From Bacillota bacterium (GTDB taxonomy: Bacteria > Sysuimicrobiota > Sysuimicrobiia > Sysuimicrobiales > Segetimicrobiaceae), in contig JAJPIA010000087.1 in NCBI GenBank assembly GCA_021324975.1, positions 1-52,726 of the forward strand: a DNA stretch of 52,726 nucleotides, in the 5' to 3' direction. Below, piece by piece: positions 834-7,007 of the stretch. The notes beneath the pieces were generated by a model, which saw nothing but the letters and a program-made list of their open reading frames with translations, was not told the origin of the DNA and ran no database searches. Within the stretch, counting starts at the first letter, position 1; each line of letters starts with the position of its first letter. Both the position numbers and the translations under genes were made by a program.

Positions 834-834
<1 letters not shown>
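643..834 (-). CDS. DUF1272 zinc-ribbon-like small protein
   Basis: A 63-residue protein rich in cysteines: CERC, then CSYECTFCPAC, then a later PNCGGELVRRP. This spacing and the closing motif are characteristic of the DUF1272 family, a small protein predicted to bind zinc; its role is unknown. Its ATG overlaps the TGA of carB (TGATG at 836-832), which implies translational coupling to the carbamoyl phosphate synthase operon. Canonical members read CPNCGGELVRRP; here the first Cys of that last pair is replaced (VRPNCGG), a small deviation that may alter one metal ligand. Confidence 0.85.
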
Positions 835-4038
<3,204 letters not shown>

Positions 4039-4046
<8 letters not shown>

Positions 4047-5154
4047 GGCCCCCGAGCGTCGCCACGGAATCCTCGTGCCGCGCGGGGGGGCCGACCGTCT
4101 CCAGCCACCGGTCGAACAGGTAGCTCGAATCCAGCGGGCCCGGCCGGCCTTCGGGATGATACTGGACCGAGACGATGGGCAATCTCTGGTGCCGGAGCCC
4201 TTCGACCGTGCCGTCGTTGAGGTTCCGGTGTGTCACCACCATCTCCGAGGCCTCGAGCGACGCCTCGTCCACCGCGTACCCGTGGTTTTGCGTGGTGACA
4301 CATACCCGGCCGCGCTCGAGATCCTTGACGGGATGATTGCCGCCGCGATGACCGTAGGGCAGCTTGAACGTGTCCGCGCCCGCGGCTCGGGCGATGATCT
4401 GGTGTCCGAGACAAATCCCGAACAGTGGCAGGCGCTCCCACAATGCCCGCACCTGCGCCGCCTGCGCCTCGAGCCGGCGCGGGTCGCCTGGGCCCGGCGA
4501 GAGCACCACGCCGGCCGGGTCGAGCGCCAGGACCTGCGCGGCCGTGGTCCGGTGCGGAAGCACCCAGACGTCGCAGCCCCGGCGGCGCAGCGCGTCCACG
4601 ATGCCCCGCTTAACCCCGCAGTCGATGACGGCCAGCCTGGCGCCGGCCCCCGGGTAGTGGATGGGCTGTTCCGTGGACACCTGCGCGACGAGGTCGAGGC
4701 TTTCGATCGGGGGGAGCGCGCGCGCCCGCTCGATCAGCGTTTCATCGGGCACATCCTCCGTCGAGATGATGCCGCGCTTGAGCCCGTGCGCCCGGAGGTG
4801 ACGGACGAGCTGCCGCGTGTCCACGTCGCCGATCCCGATGACCCCCCACTCCAGCAACGCCGCGCTGAGCGTCCGCTCCGCCTGCCAGTGATGGGGCAGA
4901 TCCGCGCACTCGCCGACCACAAACCCCGCGACCTGCGGTCGGGTCGATTCCCACGCCGCGCCGCTCACCCCGTAGTTCCCAATCAAGGGGTAGCTCATGG
5001 TCACGATCTGGCCGCGGTACGAGGGGTCCGACAACACTTCTTCGTACCCGGTCATGACCGTGGTAAACACGACCTCGCCCCCGACGGAACCGTCGGCTCC
5101 GATGGCCCGGCCCCTCAGGAGCGTTCCGTCCTCCAGCGCCAACCGCGCGCGCAT
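4039..5154 (-). CDS. carA: Carbamoyl phosphate synthase small subunit (glutaminase)
   Basis: The 371-residue protein hydrolyses glutamine and passes ammonia to CarB. The N-terminal CPSase domain includes [11 protein letters not shown] and [15 protein letters not shown]. The C-terminal class I glutamine amidotransferase has the nucleophile Cys248 in GICLGHQI and the His-Glu pair in [10 protein letters not shown] longer open frame exists upstream, but the ATG at 5154 matches the family start and has GGGAGGGAC directly before it. The leader holds two candidate promoters, a possible leader peptide and an intrinsic terminator, so expression is probably tuned by attenuation. The stop overlaps the carB start. 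Confidence 0.98.
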
Positions 5155-5182
5155 CCCGTCCCTCCCGCGATGACTATGCATA

Positions 5183-5212
5183 ATTATACATATAGCATTA
5201 ATAAAAATGCAA
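5183..5212 (-). promoter_or_regulatory. Candidate proximal promoter of carA (P2)
   Basis: On the minus strand TTGCAT (5212-5207) is followed 18 bp later by a perfect TATAAT (5188-5183). Transcription would start about 20 bases before the carA ribosome binding site. The segment is strikingly AT-rich compared with its surroundings. It would bypass the attenuator-like elements located upstream. Confidence 0.5.
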
Positions 5213-5384
5213 CGGCTGCGGCGCCGGCGCCTCGCCGGCGCCGGCCGCGGACCAGGTGCCCGGATCGGGCGCAGGCACGTGGCATAGACCGAGGCAGCAC
5301 GTGCGCGGCAACGCGAGTCGACATGAAAAAAGGAGTCCCCGCGGGACTCCGCACGCACACGATCATCAATGACCGGCGCACCAT
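5184..5384 (-). CDS. Possible carA leader peptide ORF
   Basis: An ATG at 5384 with a strong ribosome binding site (GGGAGGGG, spacing 3) opens a 66-codon frame beginning MVRRSLMIVCVRSPAGTPFF. Codons 12-20 overlap the intrinsic terminator, so a ribosome moving through it would prevent the hairpin from forming. Codons 3 and 4 are both arginine, and arginine is an end product of the carbamoyl phosphate pathway, so stalling there could sense charged tRNA-Arg. The frame resembles no known protein. The evidence is position, the ribosome binding site and overlap with the terminator; peptide function is inference. Confidence 0.4.
   Translation of the reverse strand: MVRRSLMIVCVRSPAGTPFFMSTRVAAHVLPRSMPRACARSGHLVRGRRRRGAGAAAVAFLLMLYV
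5219..5243 (-). other. 11-bp GC-rich hairpin in the carA leader
   Basis: Perfect inverted repeat: arms 5219-5229 and 5233-5243 around the three bases CCT. On the minus strand it is followed nine bases later by a T-rich stretch. That spacing is too long for a standard intrinsic terminator, so it may be a pause site or a second regulatory hairpin. Confidence 0.4.
5326..5350 (-). terminator. Intrinsic terminator inside the carA leader (candidate attenuator)
   Basis: Arms 5350-5343 and 5339-5332 (GGAGTCCC/GGGACTCC) form a perfect 8-bp stem with a CGC loop, followed on the minus strand by six T residues (5331-5326). This is a textbook rho-independent terminator. It lies between the upstream promoter (5427-5455) and carA, inside a short reading frame, which is the layout of a transcription attenuator. 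Confidence 0.75.
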
Positions 5385-5426
5385 CGACCCCTCCCGGAGA
5401 TCGTTAATGGTCCGCGACCCGGGATT

Positions 5427-5455
5427 AGTATAGGGCCAGGGGCATGCCGTGGCAA
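5427..5455 (-). promoter_or_regulatory. Distal promoter of the carAB operon (P1)
   Basis: On the minus strand TTGCCA (5455-5450) and TATACT (5432-5427) are separated by exactly 17 bp, a good sigma-70 type match. Transcription would begin near 5420 and give a leader of about 265 bases containing the leader peptide, the terminator and the second hairpin before carA. Confidence 0.7.
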
Positions 5456-5720: not shown

Positions 5721-7007
5721 ATGAGCCCCACGATGAGTCGACGCTCGCTCTTGTCCGGATTCGGTGCCGCTCTCGGCACAATGGCCATGGGCGCGCACCC
5801 GGCTCCGGCCCGCGCGGCAACTCCGCCGTTTCAGGCGTCATCGCCCACCCAGCAAGTCAACCTTTCCGTGCCCTTTGGCGCGGGAGGACTGATGGGCGGC
5901 GATTCAGAGGGGGGCCAGGCCTACGTCGAGCGACTGATCAAGACCGCCCTAGTGCCGCCGCTCTCCGACGTCGGCATCTACGCGCACGGCTGGCTCACCG
6001 ATCAGGACGACCTGATGGTGATCTACGACACCATGACCGAGGGCTTTAATCTCGAGCTCCGCACCCTCGACAGCGGCCTCCAGGCGAGCGCGACCCGAGC
6101 GCCCATGACGGCGCCACAGCTTTCGTTACCGACCTCGATGCTGATGCTCACGACGCATTGGCCTGCCCGGCAACGCGGCGAGGGCCCGATCGGCCTCGCC
6201 GACCTCGCGACGTTTTCCAAAATGGAGGCTCGAGCCAACCTCGTGGGACGCGTGGGGATGGCCCGGTTGATCGGCCTCATCTGGGAGCGCCTGCTGGCGG
6301 AGCCGGCGCTGGCCTCGACCCGACTCACCCTGGTCGGGCACAGCTTCGGCGCCCGCGTGTTTGCCAGTGCGCTCAGCGCGCTAGCGGTCCAGGCACCGGA
6401 CGCCTTTGCGGCGATCCAGCCACGCAACCCCATCGACTTGGTCATGCTTCAGCCCGCGATGCCGGCCGACGCGCTCGAGCCCAACGATCTCACCCAGGCG
6501 CACCCCTTCGCGCAGCTGGTCAATTACCGCAACCTCCGGATCCTCTCGACGATGTCGCGATGGGACATCCCGCTTCGCCGGTTCTACCCGGCGAACGAGG
6601 CGCAGCAGCCCAGCGATGCCGTCTACGCGCGTGCCGCCGCCGCGGGGCGGGAGCAGGTTCCCGCGCTCGGCGCGGCCGGCCCGAGCGAGGCAACCTGGAG
6701 GGCGTTCAACGGCGAGCTGCCCCGGGCCAATATCCCGGTCGACCGGGGGTTTCGGTACGCCGACGTGTTTCCGTACGCTGATGGGCGCCTCGTAGTCGCC
6801 GATTTGACACCACTCCATGCGGCGCATCACCGCGAAGATGCGCTACGGCCGCCCGGCCAGTTGCCCCCGTTTGGCCGGCCCGACAGGCGGTCGCTCGGCC
6901 TCTCCGGGTATCACACGGACATCTACAGCCGGGAAGTCTACCAGCTCGTCATCGGGTTCGCGCTGGCGCGTGCGGCGACATTGCGCGCGCCAACGATTCG
7001 CCTGTGA
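5721..7007 (+). CDS. Tat-exported alpha/beta-hydrolase-like protein
   Basis: A 428-residue protein. The N-terminus has a twin-arginine signal (MSRRSLLSGFGAALG, then a hydrophobic stretch to about residue 33 ending ARAA), so it is exported folded. Residues 88-91 (AHGW) could form the oxyanion strand and residues 206-210 (GHSFG) match the GxSxG nucleophile elbow with Ser208. A late GYHTDIY could supply the catalytic His. This points to an alpha/beta hydrolase, perhaps a lipase or esterase; the substrate is unknown. The ATG at 5721 is preceded by AGAGGAG; the frame is open further upstream but lacks a ribosome binding site there. It stands alone, diverging from carA. Confidence 0.7.
   Translation: MSPTMSRRSLLSGFGAALGTMAMGAHPAPARAATPPFQASSPTQQVNLSVPFGAGGLMGGDSEGGQAYVERLIKTALVPPLSDVGIYAHGWLTDQDDLMVIYDTMTEGFNLELRTLDSGLQASATRAPMTAPQLSLPTSMLMLTTHWPARQRGEGPIGLADLATFSKMEARANLVGRVGMARLIGLIWERLLAEPALASTRLTLVGHSFGARVFASALSALAVQAPDAFAAIQPRNPIDLVMLQPAMPADALEPNDLTQAHPFAQLVNYRNLRILSTMSRWDIPLRRFYPANEAQQPSDAVYARAAAAGREQVPALGAAGPSEATWRAFNGELPRANIPVDRGFRYADVFPYADGRLVVADLTPLHAAHHREDALRPPGQLPPFGRPDRRSLGLSGYHTDIYSREVYQLVIGFALARAATLRAPTIRL

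Follow-up and report, generated by a model that had tools for sequence, protein, structure and literature searches.

Introduction

The carAB genes feed both pyrimidine and arginine synthesis, so their control must answer two signals. Here we ask which elements upstream of carA could read these signals in a member of an uncultured phylum, based on a window of DNA (the whole stretch analysed, 52,726 nucleotides in length) and on a comparison set of 60 related genomes, most of which contain carA. Among named records, the only close one is a MAG that carries the label Terrabacteria group bacterium ANGP1, and carB displays 78.5% identity to its counterpart in the related genome G006. A sequence-only reading of the window had described a promoter upstream of carA, a short frame with a strong ribosome binding site and consecutive Arg codons, an intrinsic terminator inside this frame, and a second promoter after the terminator. 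The sequence bears out all of these elements (Table 1). Absent from that reading were a conserved hairpin, which encloses the Shine-Dalgarno (SD) sequence and the AUG of the short frame, and a tandem ARG-box-like operator coinciding with the second promoter.

Results

Layout of the carA upstream region

The elements upstream of carA are arranged on the minus strand in the order P1, leader frame, terminator within the frame, and P2 (Table 1). The upstream neighbour, which starts at 5721, points away from carA, and the terminator is therefore not the end of an upstream gene. This divergent gene (5721-7007, plus strand) carries a twin-arginine-like signal and is located between carA and a prmA-like gene; in genome G002, unlike in the window, the end of the prmA-like gene directly precedes carA.

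Table 1. Elements of the carAB locus, listed in the direction of transcription.
Feature	Coordinates	Strand	Details and basis
Promoter P1, TTGCCA-17-TATACT	5427..5455	-	TTGCCA 5455-5450, TATACT 5432-5427
PyrR-loop-like hairpin	5378..5416	-	model R1, 62.7 bits; covariation; likeness to RF00515 consensus
Shine-Dalgarno sequence GGGAGGGG, within the hairpin	5388..5395	-	sequence
Leader frame, 66 codons, AUG in the lower stem, spans the terminator	5184..5384	-	ATG 5384-5382; stop ends at 5184 (66 aa)
Intrinsic terminator GGAGUCCC-GCG-GGGACUCC-UUUUUU	5326..5350	-	8 bp stem 5350-5332, loop of 3, TTTTTT 5331-5326; scan and counterparts in relatives
Promoter P2, TTGCAT-18-TATAAT	5183..5212	-	TTGCAT 5212-5207, TATAAT 5188-5183; sequence; retained in same-family relatives
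Tandem ARG-box-like operator	5177..5211	-	TGCATTTTTATTAA 5211-5198 and TGTATAATTATGCA 5190-5177, 21 bp apart
carA, first gene of carAB	4042..5154	-	ATG at 5154
carB	834..4046	-	reading frame as listed

P1 matches at 10 of 12 positions, and one such promoter was found compared to 0.2 expected from shuffles of 2 kb. Transcription from P1 would be expected to start near 5420, approximately 5 nt ahead of the base of the hairpin, and relatives of the same family carry a -10-like hexamer ahead of the element at a distance similar to that of P1.

A conserved hairpin encloses the start of the leader frame

The hairpin is composed of a lower stem (ACCAU/AUGGU), a UAA bulge, an upper stem (CGAUCUC/GGGGUCG), and a CGGGA loop, with the AUG of the leader frame placed in the lower stem and the SD sequence in the loop and on the 3' side. 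SD and AUG are invariant across the aligned elements, and GGGAGGG of the SD is kept in 18/18 aligned relatives (alignment A2). Pairing statistics were obtained from 18 aligned relatives, 13 of which are distinct: 97.4% of the cells in the hairpin alignment are paired, and covariation amounts to 0.232 versus 0.084 when shuffled (0/500 shuffles), falling to near zero with slid partners. Both sides of base-pairs change in the hairpin stems, and the two stems and the 5' UAA bulge are conserved by compensatory change. Pairing of the basal stem beats 291 of 300 shuffled partners, which is a modest outcome given that kinship is ignored in this comparison.

The anatomy of the hairpin resembles the consensus of the PyrR binding loop in Rfam (AaauCCUUuUAAaucAGUCCaGaGAGGCUgaaAAGGauua), though the Rfam model does not detect it: RF00515 returned no match to the window or to the carA leaders at the gathering threshold or at relaxed E-values, and an Rfam search of the leader with both settings revealed no known leader family. 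In other genomes, the same model does match four leaders of pyrR, with sub-threshold scores of 38.9-50.3 bits. The apical core CNGNGA, with its pyrimidine-C/GG closure, is present in families f2, f5, and f7, while the loop of the window and of families f1, f3, and f4 reads CGGGA and is one nucleotide shorter; this shorter loop and the silence of RF00515 count against PyrR as the ligand. When 1.09 Mb of loci were scanned for the classical loop, defined by a CNGNGA core, stems, and a UAA bulge, 44 matches were obtained compared to 0.5 in Markov controls. These comprise carA leaders of f2 as well as loops of classical appearance in Bacillota, Chloroflexota, and other groups. A loop in Limosilactobacillus (L110) shares the CCAT/ATGG lower stem.

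Within the order, the DNA upstream of carA is readable at 29 loci, and these were used to count conservation. The element, CCAT(T/G)AA-stem-loop-stem-ATGG, is located upstream of carA at 26 of them, and the three remaining loci are all from family f6. At these f6 loci (L014, L015, and L019), tandem ARG-like boxes are kept at carA, and PyrR is encoded in the respective genomes. A covariance model, R1, built from the aligned relatives, identifies one strong copy per genome at carA in the family of the window (f1) and weaker copies in f2. One strong copy per genome is the rule, and second strong copies were detected only in G004 and G007. Here, the AUG of the element is placed at the likely start of pyrF, which probably provides direct translational control. 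Just ahead of the pyrF elements (L219, G004:C151:17058-17096; L220, G007:C46:1983-2021), there is a promoter-like TATACT or TATAAT.

PyrR genes exceed the curated cut-off in 50 of the 61 genomes, among them the one studied here (G000:C30, 237 bits; cut-off 138), with PDB matches to 1non, 1a3c, and 1ufr, the solved PyrR 1a3c being matched at 3.9e-58. The four genomes of the order without PyrR above the cut-off (G020, G037, G041, and G042) contain no R1 match. A pattern search upstream of pyrR in relatives of the order revealed no PyrR loops except at a second pyrR copy in G040, and a loose loop pattern gave no match upstream of aspartate-carbamoyltransferase-family matches in the loci listed. 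In G000, the genome studied here, a contig end truncates the DNA ahead of pyrR. The second pyrR of G040 (L224, G040:C148) shares a short contig, which may be a contaminant, with a PyrR-like leader of classical appearance and a frame resembling aspartate carbamoyltransferase.

The position of the hairpin at carA throughout most of the order, its compensatory changes, the copies at pyrF, the classical-loop scan, and the presence of a PyrR gene together point to PyrR as the protein recognizing this element. PyrR control had been set aside in the sequence-only reading as the ordinary alternative to an attenuator with an Arg-containing leader peptide; the evidence now favours PyrR in combination with the leader frame.

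A terminator follows at a nearly fixed distance

In the window, the terminator is located 34-52 nt past the AUG. By scan alone it is insignificant (two found compared to 1.0 expected). A hairpin with a T-rich tail is present in 22 of the 26 element-bearing carA leaders. Counted from the A of the AUG, its 3' arm nearly always stops at a distance of 50-59 nt. No clear terminator was recognized in L016, L017, and L018, which belong to genus g17, and in L020; the g17 leaders perhaps employ Rho-dependent or purely translational control.

We judge it likely that PyrR closes the start of the leader, that the ribosome takes the role of the antiterminator, and that P2 is controlled by ArgR. The first ~40 nt of the leader RNA produced from P1 would fold into the PyrR-loop-like hairpin, holding the SD at its apex and the AUG in its lower stem. 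When UMP is plentiful, PyrR would bind and lock the hairpin, and ribosomes could not start; the leader would stay untranslated, the terminator would form, and expression of carAB from P1 would be switched off. With UMP scarce, PyrR would leave, and a ribosome would start and run through the terminator, allowing transcription to continue. P2 is located downstream of the terminator and would be repressed by arginine-loaded ArgR bound to the two ARG boxes.

The order of the elements, a PyrR-loop-like hairpin followed by a terminator, would also suit control as in Bacillus subtilis, in which PyrR stabilises an anti-antiterminator, an RNA antiterminator decides on termination, and the short frame would be incidental. 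In bare folding, the 5' arm of the terminator can indeed pair upstream before the 3' arm is made in most folded relatives. However, this arm pairs upstream at 0/8 bases in the window, families f3, f4, and f5 have not retained the terminator arms of the GGAG type that could base-pair with the SD, and an RNA antiterminator has no need of the invariant SD and AUG seen in the aligned elements. We consider this explanation unlikely. The B. subtilis pyr leaders (RF00515) likewise display a lower stem, a UAA bulge, an upper stem, and a GNGAGG-like loop, and their sites, similar to the element of the window, precede a terminator and pyrimidine genes. In contrast to RF00515, the lower stem of the window reads CCAU/AUGG rather than CCUU/AAGG, the loop is shortened, and no conserved antiterminator is seen.

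PyrR could also repress translation only, as proposed for mycobacteria, with the terminator being secondary or Rho acting on the untranslated leader. Such a scheme would fit the elements at the start of pyrF, the g17 leaders, and three further leaders (L026, L029, and L031) whose leader frame shares the reading frame of carA, but it does not explain why a terminator is found at almost the same spacing in most leaders, nor does it agree with carA of the window, which begins 230 nt past the leader AUG and has its own SD. We regard it as quite improbable. In L030, the leader frame ends as an ATGA overlap with carA.

Arg codons of the leader frame are not conserved outside one family

The leader frame is open across the terminator in 21 of the 22 leaders with a clear terminator. 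Given that a second frame is open in almost as many of them (20/22) in this GC-rich DNA, openness is weak evidence of translation, and we discarded it as uninformative in this respect. The predicted leader peptide shows no sequence conservation.

In Escherichia coli pyrBI, the leader frame pyrL runs through the attenuator. A mechanism of this type, with polymerase pausing sensing UTP and ribosome coupling deciding on termination, would require no PyrR and is consistent with a leader frame that spans the terminator, as is the case for pyrL. However, it would leave unexplained why a hairpin surrounding the start codon is conserved and covaries, and why it has a copy at pyrF; pyrBI control involves neither PyrR nor a hairpin around the start codon. 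We consider this origin of the leader very improbable.

The sequence-only reading had proposed that ribosomes stalling at the Arg codons sense arginine. Codons 3-4 are CGC CGG in the window as well as in most f1 leaders, yet Arg codons are missing from most leaders outside this family (MVAQST, MVAEGF, MAANTV, and MAGKPL), the frames of other families beginning with MVAQ, MVAE, MAAN, MEAR, MAGK, or MVSQ. In f1, CGC of codon 3 pairs with a GCG upstream of CCAT to form the base of the hairpin, which explains its presence; other families use different basal pairs, and the CGC/GCG pairing is kept in L011 despite a changed codon 2. In addition, arginine has its own candidate operator at P2. We rejected Arg-codon sensing following the comparison of the leaders and give it almost no chance of being correct. 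Alignment of carA upstream regions, by which that reading had expected its model to be judged, produced a divided outcome: the element with the AUG of the frame (26/29) and the terminator (22/26) recur, but the Arg codons are not conserved outside the family. A ribosome-dependent attenuator of carA remains our best model, albeit without arginine sensing through Arg codons.

P2 carries a candidate ArgR operator

The tandem boxes overlapping P2 match a TGNATNNNNATNCA-like box at 8/8 (box 2) and 7/8 (box 1) positions. A similar, less perfect ARG-like pair is present at the argC promoter of this genome and of seven relatives, and ArgR is encoded here (149.9 bits; cut-off 130.45). Given the overlap of the boxes with P2, the similar pair at argC, and the presence of ArgR, arginine probably acts at P2, through ArgR binding to the candidate ARG boxes. 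carAB would then probably be served by two promoters that respond separately to pyrimidine and arginine signals.

Several genomes of the same family contain carA, argC, argG, and argR in this order on one strand within 10 to 25 kb, and in G006, carB is followed by an argC promoter bearing its own ARG-like pair. In five f2 leaders, carA directly follows the terminator, and no convincing ARG-like boxes were found.

Discussion

The carAB switch described here appears to be a compact new version of known controls, rather than a device sensing arginine through Arg codons. We hold it somewhat more probable than its opposite that a single PyrR target containing SD and AUG gates translation and, by way of the in-frame terminator, also transcription, and that it is placed in series with an ArgR-controlled promoter. 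If true, carAB would in this way answer to both pyrimidines and arginine in a phylum that is uncultured.

The closest precedent is the pyr cluster of Thermus ZO5, for which Van de Casteele et al. reportedly proposed a ribosome-dependent PyrR attenuator in 1997. This system likewise combines PyrR, a leader frame, and a terminator that a translating ribosome would prevent from forming, with no antiterminator. In the window, in contrast, carAB rather than pyrRBC would be controlled, SD and AUG are located inside the hairpin, and an ArgR-type promoter follows. PyrR is also said to repress translation in Mycobacterium smegmatis, as described by Fields and Switzer in 2007. Similar to the window, the PyrR site of M. 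smegmatis is a hairpin covering the ribosome binding site; there, however, the first pyr gene is repressed, whereas the frame of the window is a leader spanning a terminator, the pyrF elements of two relatives being the exception. Comparison of the lower stems shows how replacement of CCUU/AAGG by CCAU/AUGG can shift a PyrR site to a start codon.

The carAB operon of E. coli is transcribed from tandem promoters, the downstream one overlapping two ARG boxes ~21 bp apart. The window shares this layout, with an upstream promoter for pyrimidine control and a downstream promoter carrying two ARG boxes. However, pyrimidine control in E. coli acts on initiation at P1 through PyrH, PepA, PurR, and others, whereas a PyrR leader is predicted here. 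The two-promoter layout was apparently reached with different parts in this lineage. Given that most f2 leaders lack ARG-like boxes and that three f6 loci lack the hairpin, our comparison suggests that the hairpin and ARG-box modules may be gained or lost separately.

The covariance model R1 is now available to search for elements that Rfam misses. Two pyrR loci of Chloroflexota (L065:61 and L086:55), inspected by eye, contain a PyrR-like loop with a lower stem that extends into the SD. The loop is followed by a short frame, which covers a terminator and stops where the next frame, apparently pyrR, begins. These leaders suggest that the scheme of loop, SD, frame, and terminator is more widespread than this order.
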